The position numbers and the translations under genes were made by a program. From positions 1 to 10,527 of the forward strand of contig WLJF01000011.1 in the NCBI GenBank assembly GCA_009701945.1: a DNA stretch of 10,527 nt, given 5' to 3'. Positions 1 to 10,527 of this stretch are shown here, piece by piece; the first letter of the stretch is position 1; each line of letters starts with the position of its first letter. The notes beneath the pieces were generated by a model. It worked only from the letters and a program-made list of their open reading frames with translations. It was not told the DNA's origin and did no database searches. This DNA is from Actinomycetota bacterium (GTDB lineage: Bacteria; Actinomycetota; Actinomycetes; Nanopelagicales; Nanopelagicaceae).

Positions 1-1595
1 GAGAAGCGCTTCTGCCCAACAAACTTAGTTTGCAAGAAAGATTCGAAAGCTTCTGCGCTATTGAGTTTACGCAAAATACGTATCTGCTCTTCGCGTTCGA
101 TAGATGGTAGACCTACTTCGATATGTTGTTGCATCCACTGACGTTCTTCAGGGTTTGAGATATGCATATATTCGACACCGATAGATCGGCAATATGAATC
201 ACGCAAAACTCCAAGAATTTTGCGTAGTGGAAGGAATGGTTTTCCACCGAATCCACCTGTTGCAAATTCGCGATCAAGATCCCAAAGCGTGAGTCCGTGC
301 GTCACAACGTCTAGGTCAGGGTGAGTGCGTTGCACATAAACAAGAGGATCAATATCTGCCATGAGATGGCCCCAGGTGCGATAAGCCTGGATAAGTTGCT
401 GAACGCGAGCCGTCTTATCGATTTCATCATCTTTGGTGAAGGCAAAATCAGATGCCCAACGAATTGGCTCGTATGGAATACGCAACGCTGTGAAAATTTC
501 GTCATAGAAATTATCTGCACCAAGTAGGTATTCATTGATGCGCTTTAAGAAATCTCCTGATTGCGCACCTTGAATAACTCGGTGGTCATATGTACTGGTG
601 AGCGTGATGACCTTGCTAATAGCCATGCGGGCAAGGGTTGCTTCACTCGCACCCTGGAATTCGGCAGGGTAATCCATAGCGCCAACGCCGATAATCAATC
701 CCTGACCTTGAACGAGACGGGGAACCGAGTGAACAGTTCCAATAGTTCCTGGGTTTGTGAGAGACACAGTTGTTCCTGCGTAATCTTCAACTGTCAGCGT
801 TCCACCGCGAGCTTTCTTCACAATCTCTTCATAGGCGACCCAGAACTGACCGAAATCAAGTTCTTCGCAACCCTTGATTGATGGAACAAGTAGTTGACGA
901 GTTCCATCCGGCTTTGCCAAGTCGATGGCAATACCTAAATTGATATGTTCTGGTTTTCCAAGAGCAGGCTTTCCTTCGAGTTCACCATAAAAGGCATTCA
1001 TCTCTGGCATTGCACGAAGTGCCTTGATCATTGCGTAGGCAATGAGATGAGTGAATGAAACTTTTCCACCGCGTGTTCGCTTGAGATGGTTATTGATAAC
1101 AATTCTGTTATCAATCATCAACTTGGCAGGAATTGCGCGCACTGATGTTGCTGTTGGAACTGTCAGCGATGCTTCCATGCTCTGCACAACACGAGCTGCC
1201 ACTCCGCGAATTGGTTCCAGAGTTGAGGCGCTCTGTGTTGCAAGAGTTGGAATAGGTTTTGCAACTGGCTGTGCTGGTGTTGCAGGAGCTGCATTGACGT
1301 TACGAACAACAGGTTGTGTCTGCACGGGTGCGGCAACAACAGGAGCTGCAGGTGTTGGTGCAGCAGGTGCAGTGCCAGGCATTGAAATATTAGGTGGAGT
1401 TACAGTTTTCGGAGTTGGCGGAGTTCCACCTTTTGGTGCGCCAGAAACCGGTGCACTCGTAGTTCCTGCTTGAGGATTATTCTGGAAGTGGGTAATCCAC
1501 TCAGGTGGAACGGAGGTTGGATCGGCTTGATATCGCTCGAACATTTCTTCGACGAGCCAATCATTTGCGCCGAAGTCCTGACCTGATTGCGACAC
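1..1595 (-). CDS. kgd: Multifunctional 2-oxoglutarate dehydrogenase/decarboxylase (Kgd/OdhA), N-terminal part, cut by window edge
   Basis: This is the fused E1-E2 component of actinobacterial 2-oxoglutarate metabolism. It converts 2-oxoglutarate towards succinyl-CoA or succinic semialdehyde in the TCA cycle, in the cytoplasm. The first 531 residues are visible by translating the minus strand. Residues about 6-37 are the short E1-type N-terminal segment (ANDWLVEEMFERY). Residues about 40-115 form a Pro/Ala/Thr-rich linker. Residues about 120-355 are an E2-type acyltransferase domain ending in DHRVIQGA (337-344, His338). The E1 dehydrogenase part begins near 365 (AYRTWGHLMADIDPL, then IGVEYMHI). 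No lipoyl domain precedes the E2 part, as expected for this family. The start is GTG at 1595: AAAGGAG lies 6 nt upstream, and the N-terminal motif begins immediately after it. The full protein is usually above 1,200 residues, so the thiamine-diphosphate-binding half lies outside the window. Confidence 0.96.
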   Translation of the reverse strand, partial: MSQSGQDFGANDWLVEEMFERYQADPTSVPPEWITHFQNNPQAGTTSAPVSGAPKGGTPPTPKTVTPPNISMPGTAPAAPTPAAPVVAAPVQTQPVVRNVNAAPATPAQPVAKPIPTLATQSASTLEPIRGVAARVVQSMEASLTVPTATSVRAIPAKLMIDNRIVINNHLKRTRGGKVSFTHLIAYAMIKALRAMPEMNAFYGELEGKPALGKPEHINLGIAIDLAKPDGTRQLLVPSIKGCEELDFGQFWVAYEEIVKKARGGTLTVEDYAGTTVSLTNPGTIGTVHSVPRLVQGQGLIIGVGAMDYPAEFQGASEATLARMAISKVITLTSTYDHRVIQGAQSGDFLKRINEYLLGADNFYDEIFTALRIPYEPIRWASDFAFTKDDEIDKTARVQQLIQAYRTWGHLMADIDPLVYVQRTHPDLDVVTHGLTLWDLDREFATGGFGGKPFLPLRKILGVLRDSYCRSIGVEYMHISNPEERQWMQQHIEVGLPSIEREEQIRILRKLNSAEAFESFLQTKFVGQKRF

Positions 1596-1601
1596 TGAGC
1601 G

Positions 1602-1608
1602 CTCCTTT
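1602..1608 (-). promoter_or_regulatory. Ribosome-binding site fixing the GTG start of kgd
   Basis: AAAGGAG on the minus strand ends 6 nt before the GTG at 1595. There is no ATG nearby that would preserve the conserved N-terminus, so this strong Shine-Dalgarno decides the start codon. Confidence 0.8.
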
Positions 1609-1632
1609 GCAAATTCCAGTATTTTCAGGCTA

Positions 1633-1661
1633 AGACTATCGGCTGCGAGAGCGCGAGTTAA
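1633..1661 (-). promoter_or_regulatory. Predicted sigma-70-type promoter of kgd
   Basis: On the minus strand, TTAACT (1661-1656) is followed by a 17-nt spacer and TAGTCT (1638-1633). This fits the actinobacterial TANNNT -10 pattern, with four of six -35 positions matching TTGACA. Transcription would begin near 1626, giving a leader of about 30 nt before the GTG start, which contains the AAAGGAG ribosome-binding site. It is a pattern match only; no regulator site was recognised. Confidence 0.5.
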
Positions 1662-1722
1662 ATGGCTTTAAGGGCTAGATATCGCGAGATTGCGCACATT
1701 TTCAACGGTCATAACCCGTCCT

Positions 1723-1739
1723 CTGCCTTCGAAAGGCGG
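1723..1739 (+). other. Short hairpin in the leader/promoter region of the SDR gene
   Basis: CTGCCTT, a CGA loop and AAGGCGG can form a 7-bp stem with one T-G wobble (on the plus-strand transcript), ending about 30 bp before the ATG of the dehydrogenase. No T-run follows, so it does not look like an intrinsic terminator. It may be a 5'-leader structure or chance. The rest of the kgd-SDR gap shows no convincing plus-strand -10 box and no RNA gene. Confidence 0.35.
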
Positions 1740-1768
1740 GGTATCCCAAACTTTGAGAGAGTTGGTTC

Positions 1769-2524
1769 ATGTCATCTCAGAGCATCCGCCCGCTTGCGAT
1801 TATCACCGGTGGAAGTCGCGGTCTTGGGTTTGAGGTCTCAAAGGCGCTCACTTTGCAAGGTTTCGATATTGCGCTGATTGCAAAAGATGACCAACGTCTG
1901 GAAGCTGCTGCAAAACTTATTCGCGAGGCAGATCGTTATCACAACGGAGTGTCCACCTCACATATATCAACATTTACATGCGATCTTGAACAACCAGATC
2001 TAGTGCGAAAGCTGATTGATTCACTTAAGCAATCACTTGCTACTCCATCAGTCTTAATTCTCGCCCATGGGGTTATGAGCGAGAAGATGTCTAAGACTTT
2101 GAAAACTAATGACGCTGAATGGCGACGCGTGATGGCGATCAATCTCGACTCTGTTTTCCAACTCGTAAATGGGATTGCGCCCGCGATGGCAGATGCTCGT
2201 AACGGCCGTGTCATTATCTTCTCTGCCTGTCTCGGCAGAATGTCAGGACCTGGAAATGCAGGTGGACTTGCCCCATATCGAATTAGCAAAGCGGGAGTTA
2301 ATGCATTAGTTCGTAACCTCGCACATGAGACTGGTCTTGGTGCACGCGGATTCCTAGTCGATGCAACATGTCCAAATCATTCACGGACCGATATGGGCGG
2401 TCCCGATGCGCCTCGTTCTGCGGAAGAAGGTGCAGCGACTGCAATTTGGCTCGCAATCAGGCCATTCAACGCGGGAGATGTAACGGGAGTTCTCTGGGAG
2501 GACAAGCAAGTTGTTGAATGGTGA
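1769..2524 (+). CDS. Short-chain dehydrogenase/reductase (SDR) family oxidoreductase
   Basis: This is a 251-residue classical SDR, a cytoplasmic NAD(P)(H)-dependent oxidoreductase of unknown substrate. The Rossmann dinucleotide motif TGGSRGLG is at residues 13-20, followed by CDL (71-73) for adenine contact and LAHGVM (98-103) in place of the usual NNAG. The catalytic tetrad reads N125 (AINLDSVF), S152, Y170 and K174 (YRISK). The basic K39 after the second strand hints at NADP(H). The C-terminal part resembles carbonyl-reductase-like SDRs (RTDMGGPDAPRSAEEGA), but the usual CPGxVRTD loop reads CPNHSRTD, which is odd next to the substrate pocket. The start is ATG 1769 because an in-frame stop lies at 1754; GAGAG 7 nt upstream is a weak Shine-Dalgarno. 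It is divergent from kgd and convergent with the next gene. Family assignment is firm; substrate is unknown. Confidence 0.92.
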   Translation: MSSQSIRPLAIITGGSRGLGFEVSKALTLQGFDIALIAKDDQRLEAAAKLIREADRYHNGVSTSHISTFTCDLEQPDLVRKLIDSLKQSLATPSVLILAHGVMSEKMSKTLKTNDAEWRRVMAINLDSVFQLVNGIAPAMADARNGRVIIFSACLGRMSGPGNAGGLAPYRISKAGVNALVRNLAHETGLGARGFLVDATCPNHSRTDMGGPDAPRSAEEGAATAIWLAIRPFNAGDVTGVLWEDKQVVEW

Positions 2525-2539
2525 TGCGTATCCGCATCA
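2522..2539. terminator. Palindrome built from two convergent stop codons; candidate bidirectional terminator
   Basis: TGATGCG, TATC, CGCATCA is a perfect 7-bp inverted repeat with a 4-nt loop. Its left TGA is the stop of the SDR gene and its right TCA is the reverse complement of the TGA stop of the convergent membrane-protein gene. A hairpin between convergent genes suggests transcription termination in both directions, but there is no T-rich tail on either side, so the strength is uncertain. Confidence 0.5.
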
Positions 2540-2944
2540 GCCTTCATTCTTAGCAATAGTGAAGGCAAAATAGAGCGTTGGTATAGCAAGGGCAAGAATG
2601 ATTATTGCGCCGATGTAGAAGGCCCCTTGAATCTGATAGTAAGCAACTCCCAATGCAATTAAGTTCGACAAGATTGCTGGAGATCTCCCGTAATTCTTAC
2701 CCCGCACATATCCTCGGCCTGCAGCAAAAAGTCCGATGGCACCCAGAATTGCAAATGAAATCTCGCCCAATAGCGGAGCGACTTCCTCATTTTCATGGGT
2801 AAAGCTAAAGAAGACTAGCCATAAACCTAGGGCGAGCACGATTGCCGATTCAATATAGAGAAGGGTTGCCACCGTTGAACGGTGTGGTGACTTGCCGGAA
2901 TCATCCTTGCTTGTGGATTCACCAGACCCAGATTTATTTGGCAT
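2537..2944 (-). CDS. Small actinobacterial integral membrane protein, function unknown
   Basis: A 135-residue protein with a polar, Ser/Lys/Asp-rich N-terminus (1-24) and four predicted transmembrane helices at about 26-48, 58-78, 88-106 and 108-130. A basic loop, RGYVRGKNYGRSPAI (77-91), joins helices 2 and 3. That loop resembles small actinobacterial membrane proteins with an Arg-rich, Trp/Tyr-Ala/Gly-Arg-x-Pro-Ala loop, which have no assigned function; this is recollection, not a search. It ends 12 bp from the SDR stop and is divergent from the GGDEF-like gene, with a 42-bp gap. No Shine-Dalgarno precedes ATG 2944, but TAAAGT lies 7 nt upstream, compatible with a leaderless message. No catalytic motif is visible, so I assign no function. 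Confidence 0.8.
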   Translation of the reverse strand: MPNKSGSGESTSKDDSGKSPHRSTVATLLYIESAIVLALGLWLVFFSFTHENEEVAPLLGEISFAILGAIGLFAAGRGYVRGKNYGRSPAILSNLIALGVAYYQIQGAFYIGAIIILALAIPTLYFAFTIAKNEG

Positions 2945-2951
2945 AGGCCGG

Positions 2952-2957
2952 ACTTTA
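2952..2957 (-). promoter_or_regulatory. Candidate -10 box of a leaderless transcript for the membrane-protein gene
   Basis: TAAAGT (fits TANNNT) on the minus strand is separated by 7 nt from ATG 2944, placing the expected transcription start at or next to the start codon. No Shine-Dalgarno is present. No good -35 hexamer was found. Confidence 0.4.
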
Positions 2958-2986
2958 TCAGCCGCCTGGGATTCATTCTTGTTCCG

Positions 2987-3463
2987 ATGACATTTTCACA
3001 TGATGGTTTGCGAGATTCATTGACGCACCTAGCCGCACCACCATACTTCTATGAAAATCTTCGCCGAGATTTAGCGACGGCAGAAAGAAATCGAAGCCGA
3101 GTCACACTCATTCGTTTCCAGATATTTCCAACTGATCAGAACGTAGAAAGTGATGATGATGAAGATAATCCAGTGCAGCAATCATATTATGAGGTTGCAA
3201 TTCTTTCCTTTGCTGAAATTCTGAAAAGAAACATTAGGGTGGAAGATCTTTGTGCACGCCTGGGAAGATTTGAGTTCACTCTAATTTTGCGAGCTGGGCA
3301 CGATGTAGCAGACACTCTCTCTAAGCGAGTGCTACATCAATGGAGAAATGATCTATTCATTTGCAAGTCGTCATACACCTCAGCCGTTCGTGGTGAGAGT
3401 TCGCTGGAGCTTCTTAATCGCCTTGATAACCAAGAGTTACAAGGGTTGACTGAAAGTAGTTGA
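2987..3463 (+). CDS. Stand-alone degenerate GGDEF-domain protein, predicted catalytically inactive, with intact I-site motif
   Basis: The 158-residue protein is essentially one GGDEF domain with no membrane segment or partner domain. DSLTHL (10-15) corresponds to the DxLTGL start of diguanylate cyclases. RVEDLCARLGRFEF (84-97) aligns with the RxxD-x5-GGDEF signature, and SSLELLNRLDNQ (138-149) with the C-terminal saeeLlxrAD segment. The signature is degraded to GRFEF (93-97), losing the third-position acid. The metal-binding Asp strand is replaced by RFQIF (43-47), and the ND-GH-GD region by an acidic stretch, VESDDDEDNP. The inhibitory-site RxxD (84-87) keeps its exact 5-residue spacing. I infer no cyclase activity but possible cyclic-di-GMP binding. 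It sits 70 bp upstream of tadA on the same strand, suggesting a pilus-linked regulatory role. Start ATG 2987; its Shine-Dalgarno is poor. Confidence 0.75.
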   Translation: MTFSHDGLRDSLTHLAAPPYFYENLRRDLATAERNRSRVTLIRFQIFPTDQNVESDDDEDNPVQQSYYEVAILSFAEILKRNIRVEDLCARLGRFEFTLILRAGHDVADTLSKRVLHQWRNDLFICKSSYTSAVRGESSLELLNRLDNQELQGLTESS

Positions 3464-3520
3464 ACACCTAATCAATCCACATGCACTCAATTTCCCCAGA
3501 TAAAGATGTCAGAGAGGTCC

Positions 3521-3526
3521 TACCTT
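3521..3526 (+). promoter_or_regulatory. Candidate -10 box of a leaderless transcript for tadA
   Basis: TACCTT fits TANNNT and ends 7 nt before ATG 3534, so transcription could start at the start codon. The only purine-rich stretch (AGAGAGG, 3511-3517) is too far upstream, 16 nt, for a good ribosome-binding site. No clear -35 box was seen. Confidence 0.35.
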
Positions 3527-3533
3527 CTCGGCT

Positions 3534-4523
3534 ATGGAAACGATGGATCCCGACGTTGTCTTTGGACCGATTGCACATCTCATCGCTGACCCAAATGTAG
3601 AAGAAATCTGGATCAATTCACCGCAAAGAATCTTTGTAGCCCGAGGGGGCAAGAGCCAACTCATCAATCTCGTACTTACATCAGAAGCCGTCAGAGACCT
3701 TGTAGATAGAACTCTCATATGGAGTGGAAGACGGTTGGATCTATCTCAACCTTTTGTTGACGCGCGATTACCTGATGGAAGTCGTCTTCATGTCGCCATT
3801 CCTGAGGTTACCGCTGAGCACTGGGCAGTAAATATACGCAAGCATATTATGCGCCAGAAATCTCTCAATGAATTAGCGTCGCTGGGAGTCATGACAAAAG
3901 GAATTGCAGACGAACTTTCCGAAGCGGTCAAGACCGGAAGAAATATCCTCATAAGTGGCGGCACGCAAGCAGGTAAAACCACTCTTCTTAATGCACTCAT
4001 TTCAGAAACACCACTTGCTCAACGGGTAATCACTATCGAAGAAGTATTTGAACTTCAACCGCGAGTTCCAGACCTCATTCAGATGCAGACCCGTGGACCC
4101 AATCTTCAAGGCGAGGGAGAAATCACACTTCGGCAACTGATTAAGGAGGCTCTACGTATGCGCCCTTCACGAATCATTGTTGGAGAAGTTCGACAAGCGG
4201 AAGCTTTAGATCTCTTACTTGCTCTCAACTCGGGCCTACCTGGGATGGGCACTTTGCACGCCAATTCTGCTCGTGACGCGATTACGAAGTTGCAAACTCT
4301 TCCACTTCTGGCTGGAGAGAACATTTCTCACAAATTTATTGCACCGACTGTTGCATCAGCAATAGACCTGGTGGTGCAAGTCTCTCTTGCAAACAATGGA
4401 ACTCGAAGAATTACAGAAGTATCAAGAGTAACTGGCCGGTATGAAAATGATCGAGTGGAAATAGAAAATGTATGGCGTTGGAATGGGGAGAATTACGAGC
4501 GGGGATTGGGGTCCATGCTTTGA
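3534..4523 (+). CDS. tadA: Tad/Flp pilus assembly ATPase TadA (CpaF family, type II/IV secretion motor)
   Basis: This is the hexameric cytoplasmic ATPase that powers pilin assembly at the TadB/TadC platform. In 329 residues it shows the N-terminal CpaF-type segment (DPNVEEIWINSPQRIFV, 19-35; FVDARLPDGSRLHV, 74-87). Walker A is GGTQAGKT (142-149), slightly off the common GGTGSGKT. The Asp-box equivalent is TIEEVFEL (167-174), with Glu replacing the usual Asp. Walker B is RIIVGEVR (213-220, Glu218) and the His box is GTLHANSARDA (239-249, His242). It lacks the roughly 100-residue N-terminal extension of longer CpaF proteins, so it is a compact form. The frame is open only back to 3504, with no earlier ATG, GTG or TTG; the second ATG at 3543 is an alternative. 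It is the first core gene of the Tad operon and overlaps or abuts tadB. Confidence 0.95.
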   Translation: METMDPDVVFGPIAHLIADPNVEEIWINSPQRIFVARGGKSQLINLVLTSEAVRDLVDRTLIWSGRRLDLSQPFVDARLPDGSRLHVAIPEVTAEHWAVNIRKHIMRQKSLNELASLGVMTKGIADELSEAVKTGRNILISGGTQAGKTTLLNALISETPLAQRVITIEEVFELQPRVPDLIQMQTRGPNLQGEGEITLRQLIKEALRMRPSRIIVGEVRQAEALDLLLALNSGLPGMGTLHANSARDAITKLQTLPLLAGENISHKFIAPTVASAIDLVVQVSLANNGTRRITEVSRVTGRYENDRVEIENVWRWNGENYERGLGSML

Positions 4524-5266
4524 TAGAGAAAATCACCTTTAGCAAAGAAACCATGACCTCCCTTATGTTCGTATTTGCAGCATTCCTTATTTCATTAATT
4601 TTTTCGCATTCGACAATGATCGCAATTTCATTTGCTCTTTTCGTGGCGATTTTTACCTTGATTGCCAAGCGGAGTAGTGATTCGAAGCGGAAGTCAGCTA
4701 TCCATAGTGCATGTCCTGAATTAATCGACATCCTTATTTCTGGCGTGCAGTCCGGACTATCAATCAACGAATGTCTTGCTGGCTTAGCGTTACGAGGACC
4801 TGAAATCTTGAGGACCGATTTTGAATATTTCGCTGAAAATCTCTACTCCGAGGGCAATTTCAGTAAGGCTCTTATAGAAGTGAAAGAATCAATTGCTCAT
4901 CCCAGCTTCGATTTGATAATTGAAGCCCTCCTAATTGCCAGAGAATTAGGGGGTGCGGAATTGCTTAATATATTGCGCTTACTATCAAAGTTTATCCGTG
5001 AGGATTTATCGCTTCGCAGGGAAATTGAAGTAAAACAAAGCTGGATTAAAAACTCAGCACATTTGTCCGCAGCAGCACCCTGGATACTTCTCCTACTCCT
5101 ATCAACTCAGCCATCTACGTCACAGGCATTCTCAACACCCACTGGTGTTCTAATTCTTGGCACAGGACTGGGTCTTACGGCGGTCGCCTACTTTTGGATG
5201 AATTCTCTCAGCCGAATTCCTGCTCCAAATCGCATATTCATAGATCTGCCCTCAAGGAGACAATGA
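4520..5266 (+). CDS. tadB: Tad pilus inner-membrane platform protein TadB (T2SF/GspF domain)
   Basis: One of two paired platform proteins anchoring the TadA motor in the membrane. Two hydrophobic segments lie near the N-terminus, encoded at about 4556-4660. A cytoplasmic T2SF-type helical domain follows (CPELIDILISGVQSGLSINE ... LLIARELGGAELLNILRLLS). Two C-terminal membrane helices end the protein (AAAPWILLLLLSTQP; TGVLILGTGLGLTAVAYFWM). The start is uncertain. TTG 4520 overlaps the tadA stop as TTGA, with GGGG 8 nt upstream. ATG 4553 would begin directly at the first membrane helix, as in many TadB proteins. ATG 4472 would overlap tadA by 52 bp and is least likely. It ends in an ATGA overlap with tadC. 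Family assignment rests on the T2SF pattern, membrane topology and gene order. Confidence 0.88.
   Translation: MIEKITFSKETMTSLMFVFAAFLISLIFSHSTMIAISFALFVAIFTLIAKRSSDSKRKSAIHSACPELIDILISGVQSGLSINECLAGLALRGPEILRTDFEYFAENLYSEGNFSKALIEVKESIAHPSFDLIIEALLIARELGGAELLNILRLLSKFIREDLSLRREIEVKQSWIKNSAHLSAAAPWILLLLLSTQPSTSQAFSTPTGVLILGTGLGLTAVAYFWMNSLSRIPAPNRIFIDLPSRRQ
5254..5259 (+). promoter_or_regulatory. Ribosome-binding site that fixes the tadC start
   Basis: AAGGAG lies inside the end of tadB, 3 nt before ATG 5263 and 6 nt before ATG 5266. It supports a start at the ATGA junction rather than the longer open frame beginning at 5194. Confidence 0.75.
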
Positions 5267-6063
5267 TGCGGAATTCTCTTTCAGTTACAGCTCTTGTATT
5301 GATTCCCGTGTTCTTCTTGCTTGCCGACGATTTTTCGTGGGAAAAATCAATTTTAAGACACATCATGAAAATAAGAGATCGAACGAATGTCCGAGAGAAA
5401 TTGATTGAACTTGGGTACACAAGTGAGCGTAGCTACGAGAATTTCCGCATCCGTCAATTAATTCTCATATGTCTTCTTCTTTCTACAGAATTTATCGCAT
5501 CTGTTGTCATCAATCTCTCTGCACTTTCTCTTGTTCTCCTAGCATTACTATCTGTATTTTCCGTGGTTCTCTTTACAGAGCAAAGTTTGAGTAACGAGTT
5601 AAAGAATCATCGAGAATCTATTGAATCTGATTTTCCTGCAATAATTGAGGCATTAACACTTGCCCTTTCGGCAGGAGAGTCACCACTCACTTCTATGCGT
5701 CGTATATCTGCACGAGGCCAGGGAGCCTTAGTGAAGGAATTTTCAAAAGTAATCGAGTCGGTAACGGAAGGCAATCCATTTGCTTCTGCACTTGATTCAA
5801 TGGGACGGAGAATCCAATCAATTACGATCCGTCGATTTGTTGATTCAGTTGTAATTGCAATAACACGTGGCGCCCCGCTAATTGATGTGCTTCATAGCCA
5901 TGCTCGTGAAGCTCGGGACGGCCAACGCAATCAAGTTCTTGCAGCTGCTGCAAAGGCAGAGCTCTCGATGATGATCCCCGTCGTGTTTCTAATTCTGCCA
6001 ATTTCCATTCTTTTTGCGCTCTGGCCATCACTCTCAAATTTAAACCTATTCGCCCAAAACTAG
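5263..6063 (+). CDS. tadC: Tad pilus inner-membrane platform protein TadC (T2SF/GspF domain)
   Basis: The second platform subunit, about 266 residues. An N-terminal hydrophobic segment (VTALVLIPVFFLLA) is followed by a basic cytoplasmic loop and two membrane helices (LILICLLLSTEFIASVVINL; LSLVLLALLSVFSVVLF). The T2SF domain follows (SDFPAIIEALTLALSAGESP ... GNPFASALDSMGRR ... RRFVDSVVIAITRGAPLIDV), then a final hydrophobic helix (MMIPVVFLILPISILFALWP), the usual end of TadC. The start is ATG 5263, overlapping the tadB stop as ATGA, with AAGGAG at 5254-5259. The adjacent ATG 5266 has better spacing (6 nt) and differs by one residue. A longer frame back to 5194 lies inside tadB and is not credible. 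Together with TadA and TadB this completes the motor-platform set. Confidence 0.9.
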   Translation: MMRNSLSVTALVLIPVFFLLADDFSWEKSILRHIMKIRDRTNVREKLIELGYTSERSYENFRIRQLILICLLLSTEFIASVVINLSALSLVLLALLSVFSVVLFTEQSLSNELKNHRESIESDFPAIIEALTLALSAGESPLTSMRRISARGQGALVKEFSKVIESVTEGNPFASALDSMGRRIQSITIRRFVDSVVIAITRGAPLIDVLHSHAREARDGQRNQVLAAAAKAELSMMIPVVFLILPISILFALWPSLSNLNLFAQN

Positions 6064-6081
6064 TAAAGAAAGAGGAATGCA

Positions 6082-6321
6082 ATGAATGAAGTAATCGCAA
6101 TCAAAATGGCAGCTGTAACAACGTATTTTACTATCCGAATTCTGGAATTTAAGAAGTCGAGGTTTTATAAGGCATTCAGTGATGATCGAGGCGATGTGCC
6201 AGGATGGGTTTTGGTTGTATTGATGACAACTGGGTTAGTGACAGCTCTGTGGACAATTGCCGCTCCTCGACTCACTGCAATTCTCAAGAACTCTCTCGAT
6301 GCTATGAATGGTATTCGGTAG
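6082..6321 (+). CDS. Short Flp-pilin-like one-helix protein of the Tad cluster
   Basis: A 79-residue protein with a polar/basic N-terminal part, the motif DDRGDVPGW (34-42) and one hydrophobic helix (about 42-61, WVLVVLMTTGLVTALWTIAA), then a short C-terminal tail. Size, topology and position right after tadC match the Flp pilin slot. The leader is unlike a standard class III prepilin, however: it has DRG directly before the helix but no Glu at +5 after the Gly, and it carries PGW instead. Similar DRGDVPGWVL proteins occur in actinobacterial Tad loci as I recall; no search was run. AGAGGA about 6 nt before ATG 6082 supports the start. It could be the major pilin with a divergent processing site or a membrane-anchored accessory protein. 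Confidence 0.72.
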   Translation: MNEVIAIKMAAVTTYFTIRILEFKKSRFYKAFSDDRGDVPGWVLVVLMTTGLVTALWTIAAPRLTAILKNSLDAMNGIR

Positions 6322-6686
6322 TGGGTTTTTCACTTGTTTCAAGATTTCTGAAAGATGAAAAGGGAAGTGCTGAAAGTTCTTTGGTGCTAATTCCCCTGCT
6401 CACTGTCTTCCTCATTGCAGCTCAGCTTAGCGTTGCTCTTCATGCCAGGAATATGGAGAAAATTTCTGCTCAAGACGAAGCATCAAGTAGAGCCATTAGT
6501 GGTGAGTTCAAGGATTCAGATACCTTCCTCCAGATTTATTCACCTGACCCAAATCAGAATCTCGACCTCATCATCAGTCACCGGAAGAAATCCCTGGTTC
6601 AGTTAATTCCAGGTCTATCGCAAATCACAGGTTCAAATCCGCAGATAGATGTGAGCGGGATAGCCATTGTTGAAAATCAGAGGTAA
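6321..6686 (+). CDS. TadE-like minor pilin/pseudopilin (first copy)
   Basis: About 121 residues from the GTG at 6321. The N-terminus is short and basic, followed by DEKGSAESSLVLIPLLTVFL (12-31), which resembles the TadE entry segment RGSATVEFALVLPLL, and one hydrophobic helix to about residue 40. The rest is a mostly polar extracytoplasmic domain (41-121) without recognised motifs. The Glu sits at +3 after the Gly rather than the standard +5. The start is the GTG whose G is the last base of the preceding TAG stop (TAGTG), implying translational coupling; no Shine-Dalgarno was seen. A longer frame back to 6204 lies inside the preceding gene and is rejected. Expected role: an inner-membrane pseudopilin priming or tuning Flp pilus assembly, by analogy with TadE. 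Confidence 0.75.
   Translation: MGFSLVSRFLKDEKGSAESSLVLIPLLTVFLIAAQLSVALHARNMEKISAQDEASSRAISGEFKDSDTFLQIYSPDPNQNLDLIISHRKKSLVQLIPGLSQITGSNPQIDVSGIAIVENQR
6679..6683 (+). promoter_or_regulatory. Ribosome-binding site supporting an AUC start of the second tadE-like gene
   Basis: AGAGG at the end of the first tadE-like gene lies 8 nt before ATC 6692 and only 2 nt before ATC 6686. It is the only Shine-Dalgarno-like sequence placed to translate the conserved signal segment. Confidence 0.4.
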
Positions 6687-6691
6687 TCCCG

Positions 6692-7108
6692 ATCAAGAAT
6701 CGATTCCTGCGCCTAATAGGTGAAGAACGAGGAAGTGCCTCCGTTGAATTCGTTGCGTTGGCTATTCCTCTTTTTGTTCCGCTATTCATTTACATGAATA
6801 GTTTCGCATCGGTTACTGATGGGAATGATTCGTTGCGCACATTAGCGCGCGAAGCAACAAGAGGTTTTGTTACGAGCGCTAATGATGAGATCGCATTTGG
6901 GGTTGCATTTCAAATTGTTTCAAAAGGAGCGAGCCTATTGGGATTCGAGGGATCCTTAGAAAGTGGAGAATTAGAAATGACTATTGAATGTAGTGCTCGT
7001 CCATGCATTAGCCCAGAAACTGCAGTTCGAATTACATTGACGCAAAATGCACAGACGCATCCCAAGATTAAAGTTTCAGCAATTGAATACGTATCTCCAT
7101 GGGCCTAA
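6692..7108 (+). CDS. TadE-like minor pilin/pseudopilin (second copy) with non-canonical start
   Basis: About 138 residues with the best prepilin-type signal in the cluster: EERGSASVEFVALAIPLFVP (11-30), with Gly14 at the predicted cleavage point and Glu19 at +5, followed by one hydrophobic helix and an extracytoplasmic domain containing a Cys pair (CSARPC). The frame is open back to a stop at 6671, yet it has no ATG, GTG or TTG before the TTG at 6758, which lies inside the hydrophobic helix and would remove the signal. I therefore place the start at ATC 6692, with AGAGG 8 nt upstream. ATC 6686 overlaps the preceding TAA (TAATC) and is the main alternative, possibly a mutated TAATG. It ends 10 bp inside the next gene. 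The TadE assignment is good; the exact start is inferred. Confidence 0.7.
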   Translation: MKNRFLRLIGEERGSASVEFVALAIPLFVPLFIYMNSFASVTDGNDSLRTLAREATRGFVTSANDEIAFGVAFQIVSKGASLLGFEGSLESGELEMTIECSARPCISPETAVRITLTQNAQTHPKIKVSAIEYVSPWA

Positions 7109-7683
7109 AATCAAGCAAGTCCGCACTGGTCAATATCAAATTCTTGCTGAGAGATGATCGGGGATCTCTGTCCGTACTAATTCTCAGTCTATTCATGACA
7201 ATTCTTATTACACTAATGATTCTGACTGATATTTCCTCGGTCTATTTCGCTAAACGTTCACTGACTCAGGCAACGGAAGCTGCCGCACAACGTGGCGTGA
7301 AAAGTCTGGACCTGAATGCTTATTACAGAGGCGAATACAACCTCATTAGTTTTATACGTAACTTAGGCGAGGGCGAAACAGATCCAGGCATTCCCATCGA
7401 TTGTGAAAAAGGAAAATGGAATTCGATTGATGCGATTAATGAGCTCAATAGAAACAGAAGGGATGTATTTGGTCCACAACTCGGTGAAATGAGAGTAAAT
7501 CAAATCTCATGCGACGGCTACCAACTATCAATACAGACTTCCTCAACTGCACGACTTCCGTTTGTCATACCTTTTATAAATATAGATTCTGTAGAAATTA
7601 CCTCGCATGTGGGCACCTTTGACGAGCGAAAAATTACGACCAACTACTACGGCCTTAATCTAGGCAACCTAAATCAGAGGTAA
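7099..7683 (+). CDS. TadG-like (TadE/TadG family) pilus-assembly-associated protein
   Basis: A 194-residue protein with a short cytoplasmic N-terminus, [20 protein letters not shown] (19-38) leading into one membrane helix to about 45, and then [27 protein letters not shown] (45-71). This is the pattern of the N-terminal segment of the Tad/TadG family, in which a helix is followed by a run of Ala/Gln-rich residues. The remainder is probably extracytoplasmic, with two cysteines (102 and 138). No von Willebrand A domain is present, so it is a short form. ATG 7099 overlaps the previous gene by 10 bp. It is the last gene of the Tad cluster; 35 bp separate it from prfB, with no obvious terminator. 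Likely an envelope component of the pilus machinery. Confidence 0.72.
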
Positions 7684-7706
7684 ATTCAAAAACTAGAACT
7701 TGTCGC

Positions 7707-7712
7707 TATCCT
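7707..7712 (+). promoter_or_regulatory. Candidate -10 box of a leaderless prfB transcript
   Basis: TATCCT fits TANNNT and ends 6 nt before ATG 7719, so the transcript could begin at the start codon. TTCAAA (7685-7690), with a 16-nt spacer, is a plausible -35. No Shine-Dalgarno exists between the tad cluster and prfB. Confidence 0.5.
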
Positions 7713-7718
7713 TCATCT

Positions 7719-8822
7719 ATGGCCCGCGAATACATCCTCGAAATCAACGAGATTGGTGCGACCCTTACCTCGATTGAAAAAGTCTTAGATCTTCCTAAGC
7801 TCGAGGCCGAAGCCGTTGAATTGGAAGCCGCGGCTGGAGTTCCAAATTTATGGGACAACCCTGAAAAGGCTCAAGCAGTCACAAGTAAGTTATCTAGAGT
7901 GCAATCAACAATTGCCCGGCTTAAAGGTTTGCGTCGCAGGGTAGATGATTTGCCCGTTCTCTTTGAATTAGCAGCGGGTGAACCTGGTGGTTCTGCTCTG
8001 CATGATGCAGAGAGCGAACTTGATGCAACAATCAAAGCAATTAGCGAACTTGAAGTAACCACTCTTCTCAATGGAGAATACGATGATCGCGATGCATTGA
8101 TCACCATTCGCTCAGAGGCAGGTGGGGTTGAAGCAGCTGATTGGGCAGAGATGTTGATGCGCATGTATCTGCGTTACTGCGAACGTCATGAATACAAAGT
8201 TGACGTTCTTGAAACTTCTTATGCCGAAGAGGCGGGAATCAAGTCCACTACTTTCCGAGTTACTGCGCCTTATGCATATGGAACGTTATCGGTCGAGCAA
8301 GGAACACATCGCTTAGTTCGCATTTCTCCCTTTGATTCACAATCTCGTCGACATACTTCTTTTGCAGGCGTCGAAGTAGTTCCAGTAGTTGAGCAGAGTG
8401 ACCACATTGAATTGGACGAGAAGGAAATTCGCGTCGATGTTTATCGTTCATCTGGTCCGGGCGGACAAGGCGTTAATACAACTGACTCTGCCGTGCGCTT
8501 GACCCATATTCCAACTGGAATTGTTGTCTCGTGCCAAAACGAACGGTCACAGATTCAAAACAAGGCCACTGCGATGGCCGTGCTGCAATCGAAATTACTC
8601 GAACGTCGACGTCAAGAAGAACAGGCAAAAATCAATGCGCTTAAGGGCGATAACACTGGATCATGGGGAAATCAGATGCGTTCCTACGTGCTAGCCCCTT
8701 ATCAAATGGTTAAAGATCTTCGTAATAATCATGAGACTGGTAATACTTCGGCTGTGTTAAATGGCGAAATAGATGATTTCATCGAAGCGGGAATTCGCTG
8801 GCGGCGTAGCGCTTCACAATAA
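7719..8822 (+). CDS. prfB: Peptide chain release factor 2
   Basis: The 367-residue RF2 recognises UGA and UAA codons in the ribosomal A site and triggers peptide release. The coiled-coil N-terminal domain spans about 1-110. The RF2 anticodon-mimic SPF is at 203-205 ([15 protein letters not shown]). The peptidyl-hydrolysis motif GGQ is at 248-250 ([17 protein letters not shown]), followed by a basic C-terminal region ending in [11 protein letters not shown]. Length matches the family. The reading frame is continuous: there is no programmed +1 frameshift site of the kind found in E. coli prfB. ATG 7719 is the natural start, and TATCCT 6 nt upstream suggests a leaderless message. Its position ahead of ftsE and ftsX is the standard actinobacterial arrangement. 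Confidence 0.97.
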
Positions 8823-8836
8823 TTTTCACCTGATTT

Positions 8837-8919
8837 AGCAGCTATTTCACGCCTGCTGTGATAATTCTTTCGTCTGTGAATTCTCATAAAAAGCTCGAAT
8901 TAACCCAGAAATAGCAGCT
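8837..8919. repeat. Imperfect inverted repeat in the prfB-ftsE intergenic region
   Basis: AGCAGCTATTTC (8837-8848) and GAAATAGCAGCT (8908-8919) are inverted copies matching at 11 of 12 positions, separated by 59 bp. A smaller nested hairpin is possible (AGCAG 8837-8841 with CTGCT 8853-8857). The whole 8823-8959 gap has no open gene. It could hold a prfB terminator, a two-half-site operator or a structured ftsE leader; no T-run supports a standard terminator. Confidence 0.4.
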
Positions 8920-8927
8920 TCGCTCCA

Positions 8928-8938
8928 TAAACTAGGGT
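8928..8938 (+). promoter_or_regulatory. Candidate -10 region for ftsEX
   Basis: Two overlapping TANNNT boxes, TAAACT (8928-8933) and TAGGGT (8933-8938), lie about 20-30 bp before the GTG start of ftsE and upstream of its AAAGGAG (8947-8953). No convincing -35 hexamer at standard spacing was found. Confidence 0.35.
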
Positions 8939-8959
8939 CAGGTCTCAAAGGAGCAGCGT

Positions 8960-9649
8960 GTGATTAAGTTTGAAAATGTTACGAAGATTTACTCGGGTCA
9001 GGATCGCCCTGCTCTGGAGGGTGTAAATATTGAAATCCTCAAGGGGGAGTTTGTCTTCCTTGTAGGTATGTCAGGTTCAGGAAAATCTACATTTTTGCGA
9101 TTGATTCTCCGCGAAGAACGTCCAACAACAGGAGTCATCCATGTTGCTGGAAAAGATCTTGGGACTCTTGCAAATCATAAAGTTCCAGAACTTCGCCGCC
9201 AAGTAGGAACCGTTTTCCAAGATTTCCGCTTACTCCCCAACAAAACAATTTCTGAGAACATTGCATTTTCACTTCATGTCCTCGGATATTCGCAGAAAGA
9301 AATCAATCGCGAAGTACCCGAAATGCTGGAGCTCGTGGGACTTGAAGATAAAGGTGATCGCTTGCCTTCAGAAATCTCAGGTGGCGAACAACAGCGCGTA
9401 GCGATTGCAAGAGCATATGTGACTCGTCCATCAATCATTATTGCCGATGAACCAACTGGAAACTTAGACCCCGCGCTATCTGTGGGAATTATGAAATTAC
9501 TTGATCGCATTAACCGTGAAGGCACAACTGTTCTCATGGCTACACACGATTCAGGGATTGTTGATCAGATGCGCAAACGAGTAATTGAACTCGATGGCGG
9601 CCATGTTATTCGCGATCAAGTTCGCGGCGTCTACGGATACACGGGATAA
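8960..9649 (+). CDS. ftsE: Cell-division ABC-type ATPase FtsE
   Basis: The 229-residue nucleotide-binding subunit of the FtsEX complex at the cytoplasmic face of the division septum. It uses ATP to switch FtsX and thereby peptidoglycan hydrolases outside the cell. Motifs in order: Walker A GMSGSGKST (36-44), the Q-loop segment VGTVFQDFRLLPNKT, the ABC signature SGGEQQRVAIARA, Walker B IIIADEPTGNLDP, and the H-loop ATHD. The phrase FQDFRLLP is characteristic of FtsE. The start is GTG 8960: AAAGGAG (8947-8953) lies 6 nt upstream and the protein opens with the usual MIKFENVTKIY. ftsX follows 11 bp downstream, so the two are co-transcribed. Confidence 0.97.
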   Translation: MIKFENVTKIYSGQDRPALEGVNIEILKGEFVFLVGMSGSGKSTFLRLILREERPTTGVIHVAGKDLGTLANHKVPELRRQVGTVFQDFRLLPNKTISENIAFSLHVLGYSQKEINREVPEMLELVGLEDKGDRLPSEISGGEQQRVAIARAYVTRPSIIIADEPTGNLDPALSVGIMKLLDRINREGTTVLMATHDSGIVDQMRKRVIELDGGHVIRDQVRGVYGYTG

Positions 9650-9660
9650 GGGGCAGATAG

Positions 9661-10527
9661 ATGCGCGCAGGATTCTTAATGAGCGAAGTCCGAATTGGAC
9701 TTCGTCGTAATCTCACCATGACATTTGCTGTCATAGTGACTGTTGCAATCTCACTTTCTCTCCTTGGGATTGGATTGCTTTCTAATTCGCAAGTAAGTGC
9801 GATGAAAGATTATTGGTATGACAAAATCGAAGTCTCAGTATTTCTTTGTGGCTCACTCTCTGAATCTCCATCCTGCGGAGCGGGAGTAGTTTCGCCAGAT
9901 CAACGATCATCAATTAAGGCAGATCTTGAAGCACTTCCAGTAGTTCAGAGCGTCTTCTATGAATCACAATCTGAAGCATTCAAGCGATTCCAAGAGCGAT
10001 TTAAAAACTCTGCAATTGCTCAGAATGTGACTGCAGATCAGCTGCCAGAATCATTCCGTGTCAAACTAAAGGATCCAACACAATTTGATGTTGTTGTCAG
10101 TGCATTTAGTGGACGTCCTGGTGTTGATATCGTTCAAGATCAGCGCACAATCCTTGAGAAATTCTTTAAGTTACTCGCAGTTCTCCGTAATGGCGCACTC
10201 ATTGTCGGACTTCTTTCAGTGCTCACTGCTTCACTTCTGATAAGCAACACACTGCGCATTGCTGCATTTAATCGACGTCGCGAAACTGGAGTTATGAGAC
10301 TCGTTGGTGCCTCGTCTTGGTCAATACAACTTCCATTCCTTCTCGAAGGAGTTTTCTCTGCATTCGTCGGATGGATCTTGGCAACTGGATTACTTAGCGC
10401 ACTTAAGTATGTTGTTCAGGAAAAGGTTGCTCCACTGCTGACCTTTACTAAGTTCTTTGGGTGGGGCGAAGTCGCAGCGGCATCAGCATGGCTCTTGCTA
10501 ACAGGTCTCGTTGTATCGACCATCGCA
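9661..10527 (+). CDS. ftsX: Cell-division membrane protein FtsX, C-terminal end cut by window edge
   Basis: The membrane partner of FtsE; 289 residues are visible by translating from ATG 9661 and the frame is still open at the window end. Topology is the FtsX pattern: a cytoplasmic N-terminus with RIGLRRNLTMT (11-21), TM1 about 20-42, a large extracytoplasmic domain about 43-173, TM2 about 175-196, TM3 about 226-248 and TM4 starting near 270. The motif FNRRRETGVMRLVGAS (203-218), conserved in FtsX, follows TM2. Two cysteines in the extracytoplasmic domain (Cys63, Cys72) could pair. Actinobacterial FtsX is about 300 residues, so only a short tail is missing. AAGGGG overlapping the ftsE stop, 7 nt before the ATG, fixes the start. 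smpB is the usual next gene, outside this window. Confidence 0.95.
   Translation, partial: MRAGFLMSEVRIGLRRNLTMTFAVIVTVAISLSLLGIGLLSNSQVSAMKDYWYDKIEVSVFLCGSLSESPSCGAGVVSPDQRSSIKADLEALPVVQSVFYESQSEAFKRFQERFKNSAIAQNVTADQLPESFRVKLKDPTQFDVVVSAFSGRPGVDIVQDQRTILEKFFKLLAVLRNGALIVGLLSVLTASLLISNTLRIAAFNRRRETGVMRLVGASSWSIQLPFLLEGVFSAFVGWILATGLLSALKYVVQEKVAPLLTFTKFFGWGEVAAASAWLLLTGLVVSTIA

Follow-up and report, generated by a model that had tools for sequence, protein, structure and literature searches.

What can be the function of a GGDEF domain that has lost its catalytic residues, and why should the gene for such a domain lie directly in front of the gene for a pilus motor ATPase? This question is raised by a stretch of 10,527 nucleotides from a Nanopelagicaceae bacterium (Actinomycetota; assembly GCA_009701945.1, contig WLJF01000011.1, positions 1 to 10,527), in the following called the window, which encodes a stand-alone GGDEF protein of 158 amino acids (aa) upstream of tadA and further genes of a Tad (type IVc) pilus. 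The preliminary description of this DNA had taken the protein for a GGDEF domain that is catalytically dead, may serve as a receptor for cyclic dimeric guanosine monophosphate (c-di-GMP) and is linked to Tad, an interpretation that is supported at the level of sequence. The catalytically dead domain is probably kept as the c-di-GMP receptor of the Tad pilus unit of the Nanopelagicaceae.

The alignments and the predicted structure confirm that the window protein is a single GGDEF domain from which the catalytic residues have been lost. It matches PF00990 (GGDEF) with 30.4 bits, above the cut-off of 23.8 bits (E 3.9e-7), and this is the only domain found by Pfam. The AlphaFold2 model (predicted local distance difference test, pLDDT, 91.9) was placed by both Foldseek and VIA-align among GGDEF domains, several of them solved with c-di-GMP, and GGDEF structures cover residues 5–156 of the 158 residues. 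Moreover, a profile of 88 rows (alignment A1, comprising the window protein and 87 relatives; L084, L107, L108 and L123, being long or truncated, were left out) matched 48 PDB sequences at E 0.001, the best being 7e6g (SiaD) with 2.6e-15. The motifs read in the preliminary description are all present: DSLTHL at the start, GRFEF at the signature and RFQIF where the strand with the metal-binding Asp is expected. It was found with hmmalign, MAFFT and hhalign alike that Q45 occupies the position of PleD D327 and E69 that of PleD D344. Across the window protein and all of its 91 relatives (92-row alignment) the signature is lost in 92/92 and the Asp at metal-binding position 45 is retained in a single member, so that an ordinary diguanylate cyclase was rejected; both the GG(D/E)EF signature and the metal-binding Asp that an active enzyme would be predicted to carry are missing. 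This corrects the annotation, as the members are named “GGDEF domain-containing protein,” “hypothetical protein” or “diguanylate cyclase (GGDEF)-like protein” in the sources although the catalytic residues are lost. One detail of the preliminary description did not hold: the acidic loop (approximately residues 54–61) said to replace the substrate region lies in a stretch of variable length and was rejected as a family feature substituting for the substrate site, because columns 60–65 are gaps in 88–90 of the 92 relatives and columns 54–59 show no preferred residue.

What has been kept is the inhibitory site (I-site). The motif RVED (residues 84–87) precedes GRFEF by exactly five residues, as had been noted before, and the same three alignment methods concur in placing R84 at PleD R359, D87 at D362 and R114 at R390. 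A search with the window protein at E 0.001 identified relatives in 92 of 151 sampled genomes of its taxonomic family, its own included, with a median pairwise identity of 25% and a minimum of 12%. This family is very probably the Nanopelagicaceae, as records of “Ca. Planktophila” and of other Nanopelagicaceae or Actinomycetota are the nearest relatives that carry a name. In spite of this divergence D10, R34, R84 and R91 are invariant across the 92 aligned members, position 87 is occupied by D in 73 and by E in 19 of them, and R114 is present in 85, bearing out the conservation of RxxD that the preliminary description had put forward as a check (R84 in 92/92, D/E87 in 92/92). These numbers could slightly overstate the conservation, since similarity to the window protein was the criterion by which the 92 members were collected. 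A further ten sequences, not among the 92, offer only a partial check on this bias, as they too were retrieved by profile: four come from g1, two are additional copies in genome G143 and four are weak matches beside tadA in g6 and g15. R84, D87 and R114 are kept in 10/10 of them and R34 in 6/10. Locus L010, containing runs of N, and nine other loci enter none of the counts; nine of these loci were read, and all nine keep RxxD. Among the matches listed in 374 genomes of the class, every one from outside the family comes from a frame of at least 254 aa and has the appearance of an ordinary GGDEF protein, the best of them with E 6.4e-19, short distant relatives being possible.

The pattern of conservation is the mirror image of that of the enzymes. 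When the 136 columns of A1 are ranked by entropy, R34 takes rank 2, R84 rank 3, R114 rank 8 and D/E87 rank 11, whereas the catalytic columns (45, 48, 69, 93–96) take ranks 25 to 126. All four I-site columns (34, 84, 87, 114) would fall within the top 11 of 136 under a random draw with a probability of 2.4e-5, a rough value that ignores kinship. A set of 30 GGDEF domains was taken from these genomes for comparison. Their catalytic columns stand at ranks 7 to 30 of 138; the signature columns owe this in part to construction, because the domains were extracted by the pattern GG[DE][DE]F, which does not touch columns 45, 48 and 69. Here columns 84, 87 and 114 rank 65, 105 and 70, and column 34 is mostly gap. 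The comparison set consists of 29 of the 30 best-scoring domains (L149, with a stop in frame, was dropped) and the one of the window’s own genome; it includes longer proteins, three of which have an RxxD.

Concerning R34, an equivalence to PleD R313, the secondary site of PleD, was rejected, as all three methods place it at L316, three residues away. R34 aligns instead to WspR R198, which is given by a neighboring GGDEF domain to complete the I-site (PMC2270323). At the level of sequence, the residues expected of an I-site receptor of the PelD/PopA type are thus present, namely RxxD, the third I-site residue and the arginine provided in trans. A less degenerate form lies near tadA in genome G014 (g15; L198 4077–4643, minus strand), reading GNDDF and retaining both the metal-binding Asp and RxxD. 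This form is a possible intermediate between enzyme and dead protein and might still be active.

The second line of evidence is the association of the gene with Tad. In 65 of the 91 relatives the next gene is tadA. The unlinked relatives comprise all 17 g8 loci, all 6 g17 loci, one g10 and two g4 loci, of which one g4 and one g10 locus were scored unlinked although the contigs end or differ (the g10 locus is split between two contigs), and three g8 loci end less than 450 bp from the dead GGDEF gene. A profile search of the order sample found the receptor in 155 of 201 genomes at E 0.001, strongly in 139. Receptor and tadA occur together in 127 of the 201 genomes and both are missing in 49, in agreement with the co-occurrence that had been anticipated, while 25 genomes have one of the two (receptor only 12, tadA only 13; Fisher 2.4e-23, uncorrected for kinship). 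For this count, profile matches weaker than approximately 5e-15 (16 of the 155 genomes) were scored as absence of the gene, and G012, G026, G154 and G183 were scored tadA-less, their tadA match being weaker or not shown at a minimum of 50% identity; the tadA-only count is overstated, because the weak matches include the genes that fill the slot before tadA in g6 and g15. Outside g8 and g17, tadA lies directly downstream in 98 of the 105 genomes carrying both genes. Furthermore, the receptor and the tad genes are missing together, as one block, from genomes of several genera, as is seen from the small membrane-protein gene that adjoins the receptor gene in the window: in genomes lacking both receptor and tadA it adjoins prfB in 7 of 15 loci read (G061, G115, G025, G027, G072, G008, G114; gap 37–201 bp in the six measured). 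In the other eight, G079 has one other large open reading frame (ORF) at this place and seven show other contexts; the 15 loci are part of approximately 21 genomes (hand count) with the membrane protein and without receptor and tadA. The gene is co-inherited with tadA in this sample, the exceptions lying mainly in g8 and g17.

Several observations weigh against the dead domain being a c-di-GMP receptor dedicated to the Tad pilus. The linkage to Tad genes proposed in the preliminary description stands for the 65 relatives mentioned above and fails in g8 and g17, where no tadA was found beside the gene (23/23 loci; a contig break is possible for G143) and where nine genomes carry the receptor without a tadA match, among them G065, which is 98% complete. 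Three further receptor genomes without a tadA match belong to other genera (G013, G204, G211), and the kinship among the 201 genomes lessens the weight of the co-occurrence figures. As the g8/g17 gene is unlinked and nine of these genomes have no tadA match, Tad may not be the sole client. At the residue level, R114 is missing or unaligned in 7/92 members, all from g10 and g13 and one of them a truncated copy; the conservation must be partly structural, since R91 and D10, which do not belong to the I-site, are no less invariant; and R34 is absent from all four g6/g15 forms checked, which would therefore lack the trans-arginine step. Finally, a dynamic signal is harder to picture as most genomes have no recognized c-di-GMP phosphodiesterase.

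Candidates for the making of the signal are present in almost all genomes. GGDEF matches were found in 144 of the 151 genomes, strong ones in 139 (G044, G116, G122, G138 and G145 have weak matches only, possibly to the dead protein or a fragment), and usually stem from one protein of approximately 460 aa. In 20 further genomes in which the main intact cyclase was typed, it has the GGDEF motif and RxxD in 0/20, be it in the presence (11) or absence (9) of the dead protein. EAL matches occur in 12/151 genomes, 11 of them over the cut-off, and neither HD-GYP nor PilZ was found in any of the 151. In the window’s own genome (0.79 Mb, 55% complete) the search for active enzymes suggested earlier revealed an intact GGDEF protein elsewhere and no EAL protein. 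The observation that the window lacks TadZ/CpaE holds more widely, as CpaE (TIGR03815) is above cut-off in 0/151 genomes; weaker ParA-like matches exist in 151/151, and a divergent ParA may therefore do the job of CpaE.

From these data we infer the following mechanism. The usually single, membrane-bound diguanylate cyclase without I-site would make c-di-GMP, which would be bound by R84, D87 and R114 of one receptor subunit together with R34 of a second. The ligand might thereby drive or stabilize a GGDEF–GGDEF dimer similar to that of WspR, and the dimer could act on the neighboring product TadA or on motor assembly and thereby switch the extension or retraction of the pilus. Such a mechanism would resemble the action of FimX on PilB, except that the receptor has shrunk to a single domain of approximately 150 aa. 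A more far-reaching version, which we regard as possible but doubtful, is that the two faces of a cyclase have been split: the lone I-site-less cyclase makes the signal, and its dead paralogue, of which the I-site face is left, reads it, dimerizes on c-di-GMP and replaces CpaE/TadZ as organizer and switch of TadA. The Nanopelagicaceae are among the most abundant freshwater bacterial groups. If the split circuit is real, pilus activity in this group would be directly ligand-gated. A receptor of one domain whose gene is inherited together with that of the motor, in genomes that usually have a single cyclase and lack PilZ, would offer a nearly complete path from signal to machine that could be rebuilt in vitro.

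Catalytically dead GGDEF domains with an intact I-site are known as receptors, PelD and PopA being examples. PelD of Pseudomonas and its relatives is a membrane protein with extra N-terminal domains and transmembrane segments that acts in exopolysaccharide export. It is described as a c-di-GMP receptor without GGDEF motif, in which RxxD and a downstream Arg are needed for binding (PMC2170427). The window protein differs from it in being a single soluble domain of approximately 150 aa encoded in a pilus operon, and does not show the additional domains and transmembrane segments that would place it in the PelD family proper; R114 may correspond to PelD R402, judged by its role and without alignment. 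Caulobacter PopA likewise combines a degenerate GGDEF motif with an intact RxxD and is a c-di-GMP effector, but this response regulator, a paralogue of PleD, takes part in the proteolysis of CtrA (PMC12564702). FimX of Pseudomonas and Xanthomonas shares the degenerate GGDEF domain and is a c-di-GMP effector acting on the type IV pilus ATPase PilB (PMC11656802, PMC12564702). However, FimX is a protein of approximately 700 aa (REC-PAS-GGDEF-EAL) in which the EAL domain binds c-di-GMP, and its pili are those of twitching (type IVa), whereas the window protein has no EAL domain and its pilus is Tad. WspR and PleD share the I-site positions described above but are active cyclases in which this site gives product inhibition, and R114 aligns to Lys in WspR. 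For Caulobacter it was shown that c-di-GMP alters the behavior of the Tad pilus (PMC6581867). Among the matches listed in the open-licence literature, no receptor encoded inside a Tad operon is named, and none connects a dead GGDEF I-site receptor with such an operon or with the Nanopelagicaceae.

The slot before tadA leads to another explanation, namely that the dead GGDEF protein is a ligand-free scaffold that replaces CpaE/TadZ as structural organizer of TadA, its I-site residues serving folding or dimerization only. In other actinobacterial Tad loci the CpaE gene lies beside tadA, the place taken here by the dead GGDEF gene. Tad systems are said to contain CpaE ubiquitously (PMC13170226), yet none is over the cut-off in these genomes. 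A few of them carry a second tadA, 34–40% identical (36–39% for L228, L229, L231, L232 and L233). Six such loci were read, and in five of them (G080, G056, G026, G012 and G009, not G014) the gene immediately before this tadA is CpaE/ParA-like, a call resting on ORF positions and weak TIGR03815 matches. CpaE-like and dead GGDEF proteins therefore share the slot in two kinds of Tad loci. They are unrelated in fold, TadZ/CpaE being a ParA/MinD-type ATPase with a receiver-like domain (PMC13170226), and profile scans gave no match to a ParA/MinD ATPase domain in the window protein. A mere scaffold leaves unexplained why R84, R114, R34 and an acid at position 87 outlast almost all other residues while the cyclases of the same genomes dispense with R84, D87 and R114, and we consider it unlikely.

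The same comparison bears on a second proposal, that the dead paralogue pairs with the I-site-less lone cyclase and supplies the product feedback in trans. The two proteins would complement each other, as RxxD is missing from the main cyclase in all 20 typed genomes and kept in the dead protein; however, the cyclase lacks RxxD equally where no dead protein exists, and the distribution of the dead protein (92/151 genomes) goes with that of tad rather than with that of the enzyme (139/151 genomes with strong GGDEF matches), which makes a trans-inhibitor very unlikely. It is also conceivable that the protein senses a different nucleotide, such as another cyclic dinucleotide or guanosine tetraphosphate, or is a general c-di-GMP receptor that mainly serves something other than Tad. 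In favor of this are the position of the gene apart from tad in g8 and g17, the 12/201 genomes with receptor and without tadA match and the membrane-protein neighbor that stays in 91/92 loci, but the residues that are kept are those of the c-di-GMP I-site, and elsewhere tadA follows directly (98/105) and the whole block is missing at once (7/15 loci), so that such a ligand or client is judged quite unlikely. A c-di-GMP receptor belonging to the Tad unit accords best with the residues retained and the position of the gene.

The window encodes, in this order, an SDR protein, a small membrane protein (minus strand), the degenerate GGDEF protein, tadA, tadB, tadC, a small pilin, TadE/TadG-like proteins, prfB and ftsE, the last two assigned by eye. 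The tadA gene scores 263 bits against TIGR03819, under the cut-off of 373 bits. The coordinates are compiled in Table 1; the true start of the TadE-like ORF is probably further downstream, because the listed start overlaps the pilin ORF.

Table 1. Features of the window around the degenerate GGDEF gene (window positions; residue numbers refer to the 158-aa protein).
Feature	Position	Strand	Basis
Stand-alone GGDEF protein of 158 aa, degenerate; proposed receptor for c-di-GMP	2987..3463	+	ORF, PF00990 match, AlphaFold2 model, relatives
R34 codon	3086..3088	+	aligned to WspR R198; 92/92
Q45 codon, at metal-binding Asp position (PleD D327)	3119..3121	+	alignment
RVED, RxxD I-site (R84 = PleD R359, D87 = D362)	3236..3247	+	R 92/92, D/E 92/92
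GRFEF (residues 93–97), lost GGDEF catalytic signature	3263..3277	+	G[GA][DE][DE]F in 0/92 family members
R114 codon, third I-site residue (PleD R390)	3326..3328	+	85/92
Small integral membrane protein, 135 aa, conserved neighbor; also in receptor-less genomes	2537..2944	-	
tadA (CpaF-type ATPase), next gene downstream	3534..4523	+	PF00437 136.5 bits
tadB-like platform protein, start uncertain	4472..5266	+	T2SSF PF00482 31.1 bits
tadC-like platform protein, start uncertain	5194..6063	+	T2SSF PF00482 56.6 bits
Flp-pilin-like small protein	6082..6321	+	position and DVPGWVLVVLMT segment, also in relatives; Pfam: no match
TadE-like ORF	6204..6686	+	PF07811 16.2 bits, under cut-off 22.9
Small tad-block protein, matches in many linked relatives	6758..7108	+	Pfam: no match
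TadG/TadE-like protein	7099..7683	+	PF13400 21.2 bits, just under cut-off 22.3

The membrane protein encoded next to the receptor belongs to a family whose members, counted from the listed ORF starts, have approximately 120–170 aa. They show roughly three hydrophobic segments and share the core G-R-x-P-x-x-x-x-N-x-I, which hardly varies (alignment A2). The 91 receptor loci at which it stays comprise 82 in divergent orientation and 9 identified by coordinates (two cut by contig ends), the 92nd locus being at a contig end, and in g8 and g17 it remains beside the dead GGDEF gene where tad has moved. However, it matches in 137/151 genomes, including those in which the receptor is missing, so that a role as obligate partner of the receptor is unsupported.

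Among the tad loci listed for g8 and g17, a reading that left out the rest of L214 and L215–L218, no GGDEF gene precedes tadA. Genome G143 (g8; L090, L215, L216) holds three dead GGDEF copies and three tadA matches and could be a mixed assembly; two of the three copies are diverged and lie directly before tadA. In two g17 loci, L114 and L126, the dead GGDEF gene is directly followed by a convergent gene that was recognized by eye as oligoribonuclease-like (orn).
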